Below are positions 4,945 through 12,184 of a stretch of DNA of 56,801 bases, in pieces. Below the pieces are notes generated by a model. That model was not told the DNA's origin. It searched no databases and saw only the letters and a program-made list of their open reading frames with translations. A program made the position numbers and the translations under genes. Positions within the stretch are counted from its first letter, which is position 1. The number at the start of each line of letters is the position of its first letter. The DNA is taken from positions 1 to 56,801 of the forward strand of contig DAHXOO010000003.1 of assembly GCA_027364845.1 (NCBI GenBank), in the 5' to 3' direction. The DNA comes from Pseudomonadota bacterium (lineage in GTDB: Bacteria; Pseudomonadota; Gammaproteobacteria; Acidiferrobacterales; UBA6901).

Positions 4945-5937
4945 TTGGACGACAGATTAGAGGCGCTGAGAGGCTGGGTTACCGCGACCCTTGGAAGTGC
5001 CGACTGCGATATTCGTGCGGCATCGGAGGATGCCAGCTTCCGGCGCTATTTCCGAATCACGTTCGGCGGGGGCAGCTATATCGCCATGGACGCACCACCC
5101 GACAAGGAAGACTTGCGGCCATATATCGCTGTTGCAACGCACCTTCATGCGCTCGGGTTGCATGTACCGGAGGTCTTTCGCCAGGACCTGAACCGGGGCT
5201 TCCTGTTGCTGAGCGACCTGGGCGATCGTGTGTACCTGCGGCACCTCAACGAACGGAGTGTCGATCGGCTTTATGGCGATGCGCTGGGCGCCCTGGTCGT
5301 GTTGCAGGCGGGCATCTTCACGAATAGTGCATTCCTGGCGGACTATGATTACCCGCTACTGACCCGCGAGATGGAGCTGTTCCGCGAGTGGTACCTTTCA
5401 CGACATCTGGGCGTGCAACTGAGCCCGCGGCAGCATGCGGTGCTCGATCGCATCTATGAGTCGCTCGCCCGCTGTGCGTTGGACCAGCCGCGCGTATGGG
5501 TACATCGGGACTACCACTCCCGGAACCTGATGGTTACGGCGGAAAACAACCCCGGGATTCTCGACTTTCAGGATGCGGTTTGTGGTCCGGTAACCTACGA
5601 TCTCGTGTCGCTGCTGCGAGACTGCTATATCGCATGGCCACGGGCCAGGGTCGAGGACTGGGCGCTGGGGTACCAGACGCTTGCGCTGCAGTCCGGCCTG
5701 CCGGTCTGCGCGGACGAGACCTTGTTTTTGCGCTGGTTCGACTGGATGGGTGTGCAAAGACATCTGAAGGCCGTAGGAATCTTCGCGCGGCTGAATCACC
5801 GTGACAGCAAGGCGGGGTATCTTCCTGATATCCCGCGCACCCTGGAGTATGTGTTGGAAGTTAGCGCGCGCTATCCGGAGCTCGATCCGCTGCATCAACT
5901 TTTGCGGGAGCTGGGGGTAGCTGCGGGGGCCGCATGA
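4945..5937 (+). CDS. amgK: N-acetylmuramate/N-acetylglucosamine anomeric kinase AmgK
   Basis: AmgK phosphorylates the anomeric hydroxyl of MurNAc (and GlcNAc) and feeds MurU, so cell-wall sugars return to UDP-MurNAc without de novo MurA/MurB synthesis; in Pseudomonas this gives intrinsic fosfomycin tolerance. The 330-residue protein is an aminoglycoside-phosphotransferase fold: GFLLLSDLGD hinge, the catalytic loop VHRDYHSRNLM (about residues 186-196) and the metal aspartate in GILDFQDAVCGPVTYDL. The start is TTG, preceded by AAGGTG at proper spacing; the first in-frame ATG would delete about 47 residues of the N-lobe. It overlaps murU by 4 bp (ATGA) and lies divergent from lptD, the order known from Pseudomonas. 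Confidence 0.92.
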   Translation: MDDRLEALRGWVTATLGSADCDIRAASEDASFRRYFRITFGGGSYIAMDAPPDKEDLRPYIAVATHLHALGLHVPEVFRQDLNRGFLLLSDLGDRVYLRHLNERSVDRLYGDALGALVVLQAGIFTNSAFLADYDYPLLTREMELFREWYLSRHLGVQLSPRQHAVLDRIYESLARCALDQPRVWVHRDYHSRNLMVTAENNPGILDFQDAVCGPVTYDLVSLLRDCYIAWPRARVEDWALGYQTLALQSGLPVCADETLFLRWFDWMGVQRHLKAVGIFARLNHRDSKAGYLPDIPRTLEYVLEVSARYPELDPLHQLLRELGVAAGAA

Positions 5938-6655: not shown

Positions 6656-7102
6656 GTGATCCGGCACGAGATCGATGTCTTGACTGAGTTTGATTCGGAG
6701 CTGATGGCGTATGTCAGAATGCGGTGGTTGCGCCTGATGGAAATCGCAGTCTGGGGGGACCTGAAGAGCCGCGGCCCCGGCTTAACCGGAAAGGTGCGCA
6801 GACGGGCGCTGGAACTGGGCGAGAAGTGGCGCTCGGTTTTCAACGACAGGACATGGATTCCGCAGGTGCGGCAGCGCGCCAAAAACTTCCTGGGCTCCAG
6901 CCTGAGCCTGCGTGACGGTTTGCTGTTGTTGGAGAAGGCCGCCAAAGATCTGGATGAAGGCGGTGATTACGCAGAGTTCACACAGATCCTGGCAGACCTG
7001 CACCAGGTGGTCGCGGGCCCGCTGTTCGAGCGCGAAAACAGACTGGCGGCAGCCTTGGAACGCCTTAACCAGGAAGCACAGGAAGATGAAGGGACCGAAT
7101 AA
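6656..7102 (+). CDS. Conserved-looking hypothetical protein after murU (148 aa)
   Basis: I do not recognise this family. The predicted product is 148 residues, soluble and mostly helical, rich in charged residues and leucine (for example LGEKWRSVFNDRTW, SLRDGLLLLEKAAKDL, LAAALERLNQEAQEDE), with no signal peptide, membrane segment or cysteine motif. The proposed start is a GTG 38 bp after the murU stop; an ATG 42 codons downstream is an alternative. Base composition by codon position resembles the neighbours, which supports real coding. It is probably the third gene of the amgK-murU transcript. A minus-strand terminator lies shortly after its stop. Confidence 0.6.
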   Translation: MIRHEIDVLTEFDSELMAYVRMRWLRLMEIAVWGDLKSRGPGLTGKVRRRALELGEKWRSVFNDRTWIPQVRQRAKNFLGSSLSLRDGLLLLEKAAKDLDEGGDYAEFTQILADLHQVVAGPLFERENRLAAALERLNQEAQEDEGTE

Positions 7103-7135: not shown

Positions 7136-7193
7136 ATAAAAAACCGGCAGCGCCGCGCTTGAGTTAGAGACATCCGCAGCGGGGCTGCCGGTT
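7136..7193 (-). terminator. Intrinsic terminator, minus strand
   Basis: A 10-bp perfect inverted repeat (AACCGGCAGC at 7142-7151 and GCTGCCGGTT at 7184-7193) has a 32-nt loop that can fold further. Read on the minus strand the distal arm runs straight into TTTTTT, the layout of a Rho-independent terminator. It would end transcripts of the 26-codon Lys-rich gene and separate them from the converging amgK-murU transcript. Confidence 0.65.
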
Positions 7194-7282
7194 CGGTGCT
7201 GATGAAGCAAGGTGTTGGTTCGCCATGGATGTCTCCACTTTCCGGTAGTTAATTCTCCGTTCGCGAACCGTCCATAACTAGC

Positions 7283-7313
7283 GGTGGTCGCCCGATCCAT
7301 CGCGGCGACCACC
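7283..7313. other. Strong hairpin downstream of the Lys-rich gene
   Basis: A perfect 10-bp stem (GGTGGTCGCC / GGCGACCACC) with an 11-nt loop begins about 25 nt after the stop of the Lys/Ala-rich gene on the minus strand. There is no T-tract, so it is more likely an RNA-stabilising or regulatory hairpin than a terminator. The terminator further on lies at 7136-7193. Confidence 0.5.
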
Positions 7314-7337
7314 CGGACTAACCTGCCGACCGCTCAG

Positions 7338-7418
7338 CTACTTCTTTTTCTTGGCGGTCTTTTTCTTGGTGGCCTTCTTCGCGCCTTTCTTCTTCGCAGC
7401 TTTCTTCTTTGTTGCCAT
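7338..7418 (-). CDS. Tiny Lys/Ala-rich basic protein (26 aa)
   Basis: This 26-codon gene encodes a peptide beginning MATKKKAAKKKGAKKA and ending with a run of Thr/Lys/Ala: lysine, alanine, threonine and glycine only, after the Met. The evidence for translation is the ribosome site AAGGAG seven bases before the ATG, one of the best in the window, plus a clean stop. The composition resembles the C-terminal tails of histone H1-like bacterial proteins (for example AlgP or Hc1 tails), so nucleic-acid binding is a fair inference, but no domain is present. It sits alone between two tandem terminators upstream and a hairpin plus terminator downstream. Confidence 0.7.
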   Translation of the reverse strand: MATKKKAAKKKGAKKATKKKTAKKKK

Positions 7419-7452
7419 GATTTACTCCTTCGGTTTGTGTGGTAAGGGGACT

Positions 7453-7479
7453 AACAAAAAAAACGGGACCATGGGTCCC
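7453..7479 (-). terminator. Second of two tandem intrinsic terminators after nrdJb
   Basis: A 6-bp GGGACC/GGTCCC stem with a 3-nt loop (7465-7479) is followed on the minus strand by G then eight T, an intrinsic terminator. Together with the stem 30 nt upstream it should end the nrdJa-nrdJb transcript, leaving about 35 nt before the Lys-rich gene. Any promoter of that gene must overlap this terminator. Confidence 0.65.
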
Positions 7480-7494
7480 TGTTGGTGCTGCCCT

Positions 7495-7530
7495 GCAAAA
7501 AAGAAAAGACAGCCTGTGGCTGCCTTTTTA
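7495..7530 (-). terminator. First tandem terminator after nrdJb (bidirectional)
   Basis: An 8-bp stem (AGACAGCC at 7507-7514 and GGCTGCCT at 7518-7525, with one wobble pair on the minus-strand RNA) has a 3-nt loop. It is flanked by a pyrimidine-rich TCTTTTCTTTTTT on the minus strand and by TTTTT on the plus strand, so it could act in both directions. Confidence 0.6.
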
Positions 7531-7909
7531 CAACTTCTGTCAGCGGGAAACACATCTCAAATGAGGAATTGCGCGGCACCGACAACCGTCGGTTGCCGGG
7601 AGGGATTATTGCTTTCGAACTTCGCAATCGATCCAATGTGTCCTGTAACCCCGTTTGTGTCACACCTGCGCATCGTTTGTTCCGATCGCCTTGCTCCGCA
7701 GAGAACCGTCCACCGTCTTCGTACCGATTTGCAGCGACTGATGGATGTCGTGGTCCTTTAGATTCAGGTGTAGCACGATTTCACCACACGTCAAGCTCTA
7801 CTCTAATGAGCGTTTGTGAAAATTGCAAACACTTTTTGCCAAAAAAAATCTGACGATGAGGCCGTGAAGCAATCGATCATCAAGTGCAGTGTCGATCAAC
7901 GTACGCGAC
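7531..7909. other. Gene-free stretch between nrdJb and its terminators
   Basis: I see no supported gene. Short reading frames exist on both strands but have no ribosome site and no recognisable product. The 3' untranslated part of the nrdJb transcript would cross this region before meeting the tandem terminators. Confidence 0.5.
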
Positions 7910-8590
7910 TCATCCACACTTCGAGTCACCACAGTTCAGGCAAGTCATGCATCCGTCCATCTTGATCACGGCCTTCGTTGAACATTTCGTGCAGAGCTGA
8001 GCTTCTGCGGGAAAGTCACCGTTGTCACGGCCATCGGCACTTCCACTGCGTTCTTGATGGGCAGCGCGCTTTTCAGCGATGAATTTGCGTCTTCCCTCAT
8101 CCGGCTCTTCAGTGCTGATCATGCCGATCATCTTCATGTGGCATTCAATGGCGTCGCCAATCTCCGCAACCAGCGACGGAGTGTACTTGCCCTTTTTGAA
8201 GTACCCGCCACGGGGATCAAAGACGCTACGCAACTCCTCGACCAGAAATGTCGCGTCCCCACCCTTGCGGAACACGGCCGAGATGATACGGGTCAGCGCC
8301 ACGATCCACTGAAAATGGTCCATGCTTTTCGAATTTATGAAGATCTCGAACGGGCGGCGCTTCTCATGCGGGGTGCCCGGATTCAGGATAATGTCATTGA
8401 TGGTGACGTAAAGGGCATGTTCGGTAAGGGGGGTCTTGATCTTGTAAGTATTCCCCACCAGCGTCTCGGGACGCTCGAGCTTCTCGTGCATGTGCACGAC
8501 GTTCGACTCGCCGGCGCCAGCTTTCGGTGCTCCGGCCTCGTCCTTTACGACCTCGTATCCTGTAATTTTCCCGTCAATCTTGATAGCCAT
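7910..8590 (-). CDS. nrdJb: B12-dependent ribonucleotide reductase, C-terminal subunit NrdJb (TSCPD and zinc ribbon)
   Basis: In Pseudomonas and relatives class II ribonucleotide reductase is split into NrdJa (catalytic) and NrdJb (C-terminal part), and this gene matches NrdJb. The 226-residue product has a TSCPD-like domain (about residues 70-165, containing FEIFINSKSMDHFQW and SVFDPRGGYFKKGKY). It ends in a cysteine-rich ribbon (CTKCSTKAVIKMDGCMTC, then LNCGDSKCG) that would deliver reducing equivalents to the active site. The ATG at 8590 is preceded by AAGGAG at 8 bases; an earlier ATG nine codons upstream lacks this. It follows nrdJa by 68 bp on the same strand, so the two are co-transcribed. 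Confidence 0.9.
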   Translation of the reverse strand: MAIKIDGKITGYEVVKDEAGAPKAGAGESNVVHMHEKLERPETLVGNTYKIKTPLTEHALYVTINDIILNPGTPHEKRRPFEIFINSKSMDHFQWIVALTRIISAVFRKGGDATFLVEELRSVFDPRGGYFKKGKYTPSLVAEIGDAIECHMKMIGMISTEEPDEGRRKFIAEKRAAHQERSGSADGRDNGDFPAEAQLCTKCSTKAVIKMDGCMTCLNCGDSKCG

Positions 8591-8658
8591 GTCTAAATCT
8601 CCTTGGAAGCCGGGCAACCCAACCCCGAAACAGAGGGGTTCCGTTGGGCAACCGGCGG

Positions 8659-11600
8659 TCAGAATTTCCCGTAATAGCCCTCCTTCAGGGCATCGTATAG
8701 ATTCGCGGCCGAGTGGATCTCACCGTCGTACTCGATTTCCTCGTTGCCTTTCGCTTCAACAACCTCGCCGCCGTCAAGCTGGAAGCGGTAGGTCGTTTTC
8801 TCCAGATCCTTTTCCTTTACCAGCACCCCTTGGAATGCCTGCGGGTTGAAGCGGAAGGTGGTGCACCCCTTGAGACCCTGCTCATAGGCGTACATGTAGA
8901 TGTCCTTGAACTCCTCATACGGAAAATCGGTAGGTACGTTGGCAGTCTTGGAGATGGAAGAGTCCACCCATCTCTGGGCCGCAGCCTGCACATCCACATG
9001 CTGCCGTGGAGCGATGGCGTCAGCGCTGACGAAATAGTCCGGCAGCTGTGCGTCCGGGTCCTGGGAATTAGGGTCAGCCTGGGGGTTCACCAGGGTTCGG
9101 TAGGCCAGCAGTTCGTAGGAGTATACATCGATCTTTTCCTTGGTCTTGCGCCCCTCACGGATGACATTGCGGCTGTACTGGTGGGCGAACGACGGCTCGA
9201 TACCGTTGCTGGCGTTATTCGCAAGAGACAGCGAGATGGTACCGGTCGGCGCGATGGACGTATGGTGGGTGAAACGTACGCCAGTTTCAGCGATGCGATC
9301 GGTGAGCGCCTTGCTGAACTTCTGCATGTAACGGCTGTACTTCGCCAGAAGCACCTTTCCCGGTACGTTGTCGCCGATCTTGTATCCGTCGCGTTTCATC
9401 TCCGGGCGTTTGTCCAGCATCTCGGCAGTGACGGTAAAGTTTTCGAGGAGAATGGGTGCCGGACCTTTTTCCTCCGCAAGAGCGACCCCGGTTTCCCAGC
9501 CGACCTCGGCCATTTCCCGTGCGACCCGCTCCGTGAATGCAAGGGAGTCGGGATCACCGTACCTCATTCTCAGCATCGTCATGGCCGAGCCTAGCCCCAG
9601 GAAACCCATGCCATGACGGCGCTTACTGGTAATCTCCTCCCGCTGTTTTGCCAGAGGCAGGCCGTTGATTTCCACGACGTTATCCAGCATGCGCGTGAAG
9701 ATTGCTACTACCCGGTGGTAGCGGTCCCAGTCGAAACGCGCTTCCGGGGAAAACGGGTTTTCGATGAATTTTGTAAGATTCACCGAACCCAGGAGGCAAG
9801 AGCCGTAGGGCGGCAGCGGTTGCTCGCCGCAGGGGTTGGTCGCCCGGACGCTCTCACAGAACCAGTTGTTGTTCATCTCGTTGATCCGGTCGATCAGAAT
9901 GAAACCGGGTTCGGCATAATCATAGGTCGATGCCATGATCAGGTCCCAAAGGCGGCGCGCCGGCAGAGTTTTGTAGATCTTACAAGCGACCTGACCCAGT
10001 TCGTTCGTGACATAGCCTTGGGTTGTCGGCCAGTGGCGCCAGACAATGTGCGTCGCGGCTTGGTCGTGTTCGAACTGATTGGCCGGAAAAGCAAGATCCC
10101 AGGCAGCGTCGTTTTTGACCGCCTGCATGAACTCGTCCGTGATCAAGCATGATAGGTTGAACTGGCGAAGACGTCCGTCCTCGCGCTTGGCACGGATGAA
10201 GGCTGCAATGTCCGGGTGTGAGATATCGAAGGTCCCCATTTGTGCGCCGCGCCGTCCGCCGGCGGAGGAAACCGTGAAGCACATGGCATTGAAGATATCC
10301 ATGAAGGACAGCGGGCCGGAGGTATGGGCGCCGGCCCCGTTTACAAACGCCCCTTTGGGACGAAGGGTGGAAAACTCGTAGCCGATGCCGCAGTTGTGGA
10401 TGACCATCAGGCCATTTTCGCCGGCCAGATAGTTATGGTGCTTCTCGACGGTGAAGTCATAGAAGGTTTCATCGAGATCCAAATTGCGGCGCATCGCCTC
10501 GACTGGACGCAAGGTGCGGGCAAAATCGATGAGCGGGCGAAGCTGTGGGAAACGCGCACTCCAGCGATCGAGCCAGACGCGGCTAACCGTTTCCTTACGA
10601 TGGTAGCCGTGGTAGAAACCGAATGTTTGCCGCTCCTCATGGTCGAGAAGGCCTATCTCAACGCTGAGTGCTTCCTTGAGCCGGCTGGGCATGTAGTAAC
10701 GATCGTATTGCCCTGCCTGGCTGGCATGCTTGTTGATTCGCCGCCGCTTGCCGCTGTCCGCCATGAAGCCGGCTACCTTTGCAAGGAACGCCGAATCGGA
10801 GATCTCCAACATCGTCCCGCCGGTATCACGGATGGCACGGCCTCGGTAATCGTGCTCACGTGGCTTTCGGGCGGTGATCGCACCGTGTACCCCGAACAGG
10901 CCGAGCAGTCCTTTGATCTGTTCGGCGAACTCCCGGCTCCGCATCGCAACGATGGTGCTGCCACGCTCGGTGCTCACTGCCCCGTCGGCGTCGATTAGCC
11001 CCGCCAGGAACGGGAGGAAATACTGGTCCGGATGGGCCGCCACCCAGGCGGGGATTCGAAGCTCGGCGCCTTTTTTACCGGCCTGTCCATCAATCAGTTC
11101 GGCTGCCCGGCTGGCCTCGAAGCCAGCGACCGAGTAATCCCAAACGGGTGCGCCATTCACCGCGGCGGTAAATGCGATTTGTGCCCCGGAACCGCAGACG
11201 GCACGGAAGAATGCGGTGTACTGTTCAACCACCTCGTGCTCCGCGGCACGGACCTTGAAAGCAAGCCGGTGGCCCGCCGTACGAGCTGTTTCGGCCCACG
11301 TTGCACGACTGCTCTTGTCTTCGGACCGTTTCTCGTAGACGTTGTTGTCGCCGAGGCAGGCGCCGGCGAACCAGGCGCGCAGCGCCTCACTCTCATCGGC
11401 AAGCCAGGCGAAGGTATGGTGAACCAAAGCATCGCTCGGACAAACTTCGTCGGCGCGCACATAGGTGAGCTGGTCGTAGCGATAAACCAGAACCGGGTGT
11501 TTGATGGAGGTCTTCAACACCGCGCCGCCGGAGCGAATTTCGATATTTTCGTTGCGCGGCACATGAGTCGTCATGTGACGCTCAATCCGGCGCATTTCGA

Positions 11601-12105
11601 AGGATCCCGTCTCGCGGTCGTAGCAGAGCATACGTTTATGGCGCTCGATGACCGCTCGCTCCGCGGTGACCACGCCGTGCTCAGTTACGACTCTGGTCTC
11701 CGGCGCGACACAGCCTGCCTTCAGGGTCAAACCGGCCTCATGTACTGCGCTCAGAATCCCGTCCATTGAGTCGCGCACAGTGCCGGAAACGGTACAGTTG
11801 ATGGTGCTGGTGGCAGGTTTGTGATCCAGGGCTCCTGCGTTGGACGTGATGCGGCCGGCAGGGATCGCGCCATTTAGCAGCGCCCAGAGAAACCGGTCAA
11901 ACCATTCTGTTCGTTTTTCCGCAGTATCCTCGACGTCAGCGAGCGCACGTGCAATGCGGGTATAGGTTCCAAGAATATCCTGGTCGACAGGCTCGCCGGC
12001 CTTGGTCTTGAGCCGGTACTTCTTGTCCCAAATATCATGGGAAGCTGGCTGGAGGGGAATTTCAGAGCTATCAGCCTGTTGAGCCTGTATTTTTGCCGCC
12101 TTCAT
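8659..12105 (-). CDS. nrdJa: B12-dependent ribonucleotide reductase catalytic subunit NrdJa, interrupted by an intein
   Basis: Class II reductases make deoxynucleotides using adenosylcobalamin to create the thiyl radical. The precursor has 1148 residues; removing the intein (132-571) leaves a 708-residue enzyme, close to other NrdJa proteins. Catalytic parts are visible: the redox cysteine in STINCTVSGTVRDSMDGI (C104), the FSTLRP nucleotide site directly after the intein, the radical cysteine in NPCGEQPLPPYGSC (C759), its partner C770 and the PTGTISL loop. The cysteine-rich tail is supplied by NrdJb. The ATG has GGAGG ten bases upstream; an ORF extension to 12174 would start inside the promoter region. 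A palindrome resembling a NrdR box lies 60 bp upstream. Confidence 0.95.
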   Translation of the reverse strand: MKAAKIQAQQADSSEIPLQPASHDIWDKKYRLKTKAGEPVDQDILGTYTRIARALADVEDTAEKRTEWFDRFLWALLNGAIPAGRITSNAGALDHKPATSTINCTVSGTVRDSMDGILSAVHEAGLTLKAGCVAPETRVVTEHGVVTAERAVIERHKRMLCYDRETGSFEMRRIERHMTTHVPRNENIEIRSGGAVLKTSIKHPVLVYRYDQLTYVRADEVCPSDALVHHTFAWLADESEALRAWFAGACLGDNNVYEKRSEDKSSRATWAETARTAGHRLAFKVRAAEHEVVEQYTAFFRAVCGSGAQIAFTAAVNGAPVWDYSVAGFEASRAAELIDGQAGKKGAELRIPAWVAAHPDQYFLPFLAGLIDADGAVSTERGSTIVAMRSREFAEQIKGLLGLFGVHGAITARKPREHDYRGRAIRDTGGTMLEISDSAFLAKVAGFMADSGKRRRINKHASQAGQYDRYYMPSRLKEALSVEIGLLDHEERQTFGFYHGYHRKETVSRVWLDRWSARFPQLRPLIDFARTLRPVEAMRRNLDLDETFYDFTVEKHHNYLAGENGLMVIHNCGIGYEFSTLRPKGAFVNGAGAHTSGPLSFMDIFNAMCFTVSSAGGRRGAQMGTFDISHPDIAAFIRAKREDGRLRQFNLSCLITDEFMQAVKNDAAWDLAFPANQFEHDQAATHIVWRHWPTTQGYVTNELGQVACKIYKTLPARRLWDLIMASTYDYAEPGFILIDRINEMNNNWFCESVRATNPCGEQPLPPYGSCLLGSVNLTKFIENPFSPEARFDWDRYHRVVAIFTRMLDNVVEINGLPLAKQREEITSKRRHGMGFLGLGSAMTMLRMRYGDPDSLAFTERVAREMAEVGWETGVALAEEKGPAPILLENFTVTAEMLDKRPEMKRDGYKIGDNVPGKVLLAKYSRYMQKFSKALTDRIAETGVRFTHHTSIAPTGTISLSLANNASNGIEPSFAHQYSRNVIREGRKTKEKIDVYSYELLAYRTLVNPQADPNSQDPDAQLPDYFVSADAIAPRQHVDVQAAAQRWVDSSISKTANVPTDFPYEEFKDIYMYAYEQGLKGCTTFRFNPQAFQGVLVKEKDLEKTTYRFQLDGGEVVEAKGNEEIEYDGEIHSAANLYDALKEGYYGKF
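10393..11712 (-). mobile_element. LAGLIDADG intein within NrdJa
   Basis: The 440-residue insertion starts with Cys (CVAPETRVVTEHG, splicing block A) and ends HN before an extein Cys (GLMVIHN|CGIGYEF, block G). Block B is present as TSIKHPVLV (Ser in place of the usual Thr, His kept) and block F as FYDFTVEKHHNYLAGENG. The middle carries a dodecapeptide homing endonuclease: a diverged first motif (AWFAGACLGDNNVYE, about precursor 244-258) and a perfect second one (FLAGLIDADGAVS, about 366-378), each with its acidic residue. All splicing residues are in place, so self-excision is expected and the nuclease may still be active. The insertion splits a conserved active-site loop (LKAG / GIGYEFSTLRP), typical of intein targets. 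Confidence 0.93.
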
Positions 12106-12163
12106 TGGGTAAATACCTCCTTCGCGCTTGTTGGCAGAAACACGCCTATTATTAGTGTCGGGC

Positions 12164-12184
12164 ACACAATACAAGATATTGTGT
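12164..12184. promoter_or_regulatory. NrdR-box-like palindrome upstream of nrdJa
   Basis: A perfect 8-bp inverted repeat (ACACAATA, 5-nt spacer, TATTGTGT) lies 59 bp before the nrdJa ATG. On the minus strand it contains ACACAATATCTTGTAT, very close to the published NrdR box (about ACACwATATmTTGTGT). A weaker ACACAAGTTGAT lies on the promoter side, so a pair of boxes is possible. NrdR represses ribonucleotide reductase operons in most bacteria. Confidence 0.65.

Follow-up and report, generated by a model that had tools for sequence, protein, structure and literature searches.

The window analysed here, a 56,801-nt stretch of a genome from Acidiferrobacterales, an order of Gammaproteobacteria whose members are related to sulfur- and iron-oxidisers, carries on its minus strand a real gene of only 26 codons that encodes a peptide made largely of lysine and alanine. 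The gene, its neighbours and the observed or predicted parts of its unit are, in the direction of its transcription:

7910–8596, minus strand: nrdJb-like gene with a TSCPD domain, the constant upstream neighbour outside one family, f4
7819–7838, minus strand: upstream element CAAAAAGTGTTTGCAATTTT, a possible UP element or activator site
7767–7794, minus strand: predicted promoter, with a -35 box TTGACG at 7789–7794 and an extended -10 region TGTGC-TACACC, its hexamer at 7767–7772
7620–7636, minus strand: conserved leader motif TTGGATCGATTGCGAAG, nearly invariant across several families
7504–7528, minus strand: first leader hairpin AAAAGGCAGCC-ACA-GGCTGTCTTTT, terminator-like, a possible attenuator
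7456–7479, minus strand: second leader hairpin GGGACCCATGGTCCC, terminator-like, with G and T8 behind it, its position kept and its sequence changed in relatives
7432–7450, minus strand: conserved end of the leader, TCCCCTTACCACACAAACC in the window and TCCCTTAACCACAACC as order consensus, just ahead of the ribosome site
7425–7430, minus strand: ribosome-binding site AAGGAG, 6 nt before the ATG; AAGGAG or AGGAG is kept across the relatives' loci
7338–7418, minus strand: 26-codon Lys/Ala ORF MATKKKAAKKKGAKKATKKKTAKKKK, ATG start and TAG stop, kept in relatives and under purifying selection
7194–7337, minus strand: 3' untranslated region, with a strong GC hairpin in the window genome (z -1.86, not decisive)
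7138–7193, minus strand: 3' intrinsic terminator AACCGGCAGC...GCTGCCGGTTTTTT (-31.4 kcal/mol, z -3.96)
6656–7102, plus strand: convergent downstream gene of 148 aa, without a Pfam, NCBIfam or PHROGs family

Further upstream, the nrdJ catalytic gene (8659–12174, minus strand) is split by an intein-like insert, with NrdJ_Z matching two stretches of the product and an intein C-terminal splicing model matching residues 553–577.

The encoded peptide comprises 15 Lys, 6 Ala, 3 Thr, 1 Gly and 1 Met, begins MATKKK and ends KKKK, and among the window's 870 ORFs that reach 20 aa, its ORF alone exceeds 30% Lys. A preliminary description had called it Lys/Ala-only, which is slightly loose given the Thr, Gly and Met residues, and had likened its composition to a histone H1 tail, which stands; the observation as a whole is confirmed, and frame, start and ribosome site recur in relatives. 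ORFs of such short length escape ordinary gene finders, and comparison of the peptide with Pfam, NCBIfam, PHROGs and PDB sequences gave no match, as is to be expected of a short, low-complexity query. A 136-codon antisense ORF (7351–7761, plus strand) overlaps the gene and mirrors its Lys codons.

Conservation of position provides the first line of evidence. A protein search found the nrdJb-like neighbour in 35 of 60 related genomes, that of the window included, and at the equivalent place after nrdJb a Lys/Ala ORF is present in 34 of these 35 (29 of the loci L022–L051, together with L011, L013, L021, L054 and L045), always on the same strand, about 0.45 to 0.83 kb beyond nrdJb and with an AGGAG-type ribosome site; the remaining genome, G008, retains no more of nrdJb than 105 bases at the edge of a contig. 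Since the L045 ORF runs into a contig end, 33 ORFs are complete, 27 of them 14–30 aa long and six 79–98 aa long, the 49-aa ORF of genome G033 being left out of this number and counted under family f4. Lys (309) and Ala (141) together make up 450 of the 493 residues that follow the start in the 27 short ORFs (up to 30 aa). The Lys codon choice across the 34 ORFs (64% AAG) carries no weight for or against a gene. No orthologue was found in five genomes of the order (G006, G008, G038, G044 and G050), all of which are at most 89% complete; G008 carries an unlinked 141-aa Lys-rich ORF.

Equally important is the pattern of substitution. Among five sequences of the same genus, 3, 1 and 9 columns (of 25 each) vary at codon positions 1, 2 and 3, respectively, so that nine of the 13 variable columns fall on the third position (hypergeometric P = 0.004), and pN/pS amounts to 0.119 within the genus, to 0.140 among six ORFs of 16 aa from family f7, and to 0.28 in looser same-length groups, where the comparison is ungapped and not a true codon alignment. 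Moreover, one 16-aa peptide, MAAKKKAKKKAAKKKK, is common to four genera (L036, L040, L047 and L050) with synonymous codon differences. Because pN/pS is low and an identical peptide is kept across synonymous differences, the peptide, and not the DNA alone, is under selection. Within the genus, identity reaches 0.919 in the ORF, 0.908 in the hairpins and ribosome site, 0.857 in the promoter, 0.773 in the 3' region and 0.767 in the leader, with 0.56 and 0.52 in the flanks. A spurious low-complexity ORF, an explanation to which the low complexity itself and the missing database match would be congenial, is ruled out by the conserved frame, start and ribosome site and by the synonymous bias, and its probability is negligible. 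The preliminary description had named a frame or ribosome site not conserved in relatives, or substitutions without synonymous bias, as grounds for abandoning the gene; the test was run and the gene survived it. Support was also obtained for a free-standing gene that looks translated and that relatives keep in the same place after nrdJb, whereas the binding to nucleoid or RNA proposed in that description is a possible function.

The unit is also larger than that description had seen: a predicted promoter of its own opens it, about 340 nt of leader with a terminator-like hairpin follow, and a conserved terminator closes the 3' region. A fixed-spacing pattern, TTGAC-N14-TGnTA, occurs 264–443 bp upstream of the ATG in 32 of the 35 loci read, the exceptions being L047, L048 and L051, in which it was not recognised; from this pattern we infer the promoter. 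A simple consensus scanner reported no promoter, because it demanded T at the last -10 position. Where the pattern is present, a TTTGCA-type element with A/T tracts usually lies 30–36 bp upstream of the promoter, and in L023, L024 and L025 it is palindromic (GTTTGCAA-TTT-TTGCAAAC). A promoter directly upstream of the ribosome site was considered and rejected, as no fixed-spacing pair is found there and the distance between the two conserved boxes GCAGTACC and TCCCTTAACC varies. Mere membership of the nrdJ operon is also ruled out, because the gene has a predicted promoter of its own and, in family f4, is present where nrdJb is absent.

The leader, which starts just after the promoter, is a candidate for a new regulatory RNA element. 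In its first hairpin, 96.3% of cells are paired, covariation is 0.301 versus 0.221 in shuffled alignments, and ten two-sided changes compare with a mean of 3.2 after shuffling; in slid controls, 44–68% of cells pair, a comparison biased in favour of the hairpin, as it was derived from the same sequences. Close to the gene, TCCCYTAACCACAACC precedes the ribosome site in the leader. At the other end of the unit, the corresponding terminator stem is kept with compensatory pairs in the f7 relatives. Rfam gave no match to the window at the gathering cut-off, and a search of eight loci at E up to 5 returned only LOOT, at 25.3 bits versus a cut-off of 46.4. This sub-threshold match (L027, 2939–3072, minus strand) lies antisense to the 3' region and is probably due to chance.

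Longer versions of the gene are found in family f4, where the ribosome-site pattern for a MAxKK gene is present in 18 of 18 genomes, and a protein search found nrdJb absent from all 18. The 14 f4 genes read encode basic proteins of 49–99 aa, rich in Lys, Ala, Ser and Thr. Among the longer f4 orthologues of 83–99 aa, the same promoter architecture, a TTGAC-type promoter together with an element resembling TTGTTTGCAAATG, recurs in all five upstream regions read, and it is also present in G033, the box being shortened to CTGACA in one of the five (L197). Furthermore, a homologue of the convergent gene at 6656–7102 is convergent in nine of nine f4 loci tested (46–52% identity), and this shared neighbour speaks for an orthologous locus that is either older than the linkage to nrdJ or a survivor of its loss. 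Against HC2 (PF07382), an f4 orthologue scored 14.1 bits (E 0.052; gathering cut-off 40 bits, not reached), and against hist_H1_lk_Burk (NF038053; cut-off 80 bits, not reached) the f4 and G033 orthologues scored 18.5 and 12.2 bits; the window peptide matched neither HC2, at E up to 1, nor hist_H1_lk_Burk, and some longer members had no score in Pfam or NCBIfam.

Two further sets of loci show similar arrangements. In genome G020 the leader end is present a second time (L072, G020:C327), there ahead of a basic product of 67 aa that looks coiled (MAKKRKAARSPALIKAEAILKK...), which suggests duplication of the unit with a new product. Lys-rich, H1-like ORFs of 136 and 157 aa, counted from the ATG, follow nrdJb after a long upstream gap of their own in one other family of the class (L234 and L239); these two were found among 27 nrdJb loci of other families, taken as the best-scoring of 133 matching genomes outside the order, an uneven sample.

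In composition (Lys/Ala-rich, low-complexity and basic) and in length variation by repeat number, the gene products agree with the broad bacterial H1-like kind. Chlamydial Hc2 (HctB) and Hc2-like proteins, Bordetella BpH1 and Burkholderia hist_H1_lk_Burk are likewise Lys/Ala-rich and repetitive, their repeat part lacks a globular domain, and we know of no conserved leader and promoter for their genes. The H1-like proteins known to us are all far longer than 14 aa, and a peptide this small could act differently. In Hc2 and its relatives, length varies by repeat number over about 150–237 aa (PMC2848022), whereas the products near nrdJb here span 14–98 aa. The genome of the window encodes, at a separate locus (L002, G000:C15:2643-2677), a more typical H1-like protein of 117 aa that also starts MATKKK behind a good ribosome site; it matches HC2 (E 6.3e-8) and hist_H1_lk_Burk (58 bits), both below the cut-offs, and differs from the window gene product in its length and its proline-containing end. 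The suggestion in the preliminary description of a new class is therefore too strong, because the longer orthologues within the order resemble ordinary bacterial H1-like proteins: the kind is known, and what is new is the miniature form together with its leader.

The reading that we favour, and hold to be reasonably probable, is that of a gene that stands alone between a promoter and a terminator of its own and encodes a tiny polycationic peptide, which would amount to the bare tail of an H1-like protein and bind polyanions; conservation, purifying selection, the promoter, the covarying leader hairpin, the terminator and orthology to longer H1-like proteins, all read from sequence, speak for it. 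In such a scheme, transcription from a housekeeping-type promoter would give about 620 nt of RNA, the terminator-like leader hairpin would halt part of it and render expression tunable, the strong ribosome site would have the peptide made, and the peptide would be expected to bind DNA, RNA or polyphosphate by charge, so that it probably coats nucleic acid or polyphosphate. If charge density and dose, rather than a fold, are what counts, the peptide may be free to vary in length, and in some lineages the gene of an H1-like protein would have been reduced to a bare polycationic tail. Set against this, a simple structural peptide would hardly seem to call for so elaborate a leader, three loci have no recognised promoter, and the longer members without any Pfam or NCBIfam score fit it less well. 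A bolder version, possible and rather more doubtful, would add H1-tail-only microproteins down to 14 residues under leader/attenuator control, possible autoregulation by the peptide, and stepwise shrinkage from about 90 aa.

The elaborate leader could alternatively be the point of the locus, with the structured leader and 3' region as the main product of a dual-function RNA and the short ORF secondary or regulatory: both regions are conserved and structured, the predicted transcript of about 620 nt in the window compares with as few as 14 codons in relatives, and the leader hairpin could set free a small RNA some 250 nt long. However, selection acts at the level of the peptide, the ORF is the best-kept segment within the genus and grows to 79–98 aa in other families, and no Rfam family is matched, so we consider this explanation unlikely. 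The Lys codon runs, followed by a hairpin and a T-run, would also suit a lysine-sensing leader peptide that attenuates a downstream gene, yet beyond the terminator the next gene runs towards the unit, not only in the window but also in G012 and nine f4 loci, and the ORFs reach 98 aa; as convergent neighbours leave no same-strand gene downstream to control, such a peptide was ruled out as a candidate, and we hold it to be very improbable.

Other readings concern the partner of the peptide. bTHX is a very small cationic 30S ribosomal protein, similar in size and charge, and a ribosome-associated peptide analogous to it might be imagined here; however, bTHX has a defined sequence and site, whereas the present peptides are of low complexity and variable length, and a range of 14 to 98 aa is unsuited to a fixed ribosomal site, which makes this analogy highly improbable. 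The window peptide, a short query of low complexity, matched no PDB chain at E up to 10. A peptide that organises polyphosphate and not nucleic acid, as AlgP does, is decidedly unlikely too, although the tails of Pseudomonas AlgP and PhaF have a similar H1-tail-like Lys/Ala composition and, in AlgP, the tail binds DNA, the protein localises to polyphosphate granules and spaces them, and the K/P/A-rich tail is needed for this spacing (PMC9239181). The 124-aa alpha-helical N-terminal domain and the KPAA repeats of AlgP are both missing here, and proline is almost absent from the present peptides.

Should the bolder version be true, these peptides would be among the smallest known proteins that organise nucleoids or polyanions, and the lineage would record a histone-like protein shrinking to a charge block. 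The series from 14 to 98 aa at one orthologous locus raises the question of how much of a histone-like protein is required and if charge can suffice by itself. Although conserved, the gene can be as short as 14 codons and is probably absent from most annotations; it was found through its unit of promoter, leader, ribosome site and terminator, and not by homology search; a literature search found nothing on it. Searching 369 genomes of the class with the leader/ribosome-site pattern gave six matches, two within the order, of which G012 is the gene itself, G017 a different 67-aa protein and the other four ordinary proteins. Patterns for Lys-ending ORFs of 6 to about 25 aa, which require AGGAG, ATGGC and a KKK end, place the 26-aa window ORF just outside their range and match 19 of 19 short ORFs of the order as a control, gave eight matches in 398 genomes of the phylum, none of them a Lys/Ala microprotein by its matched sequence; microproteins built in another way would escape such patterns. 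Stand-alone Lys-rich ORFs with good ribosome sites, apparently independent, occur in a Deltaproteobacteria MAG (23 aa; L149, near 5000–5110) and in Vicinamibacterales (37 aa; L076, near 540–646).
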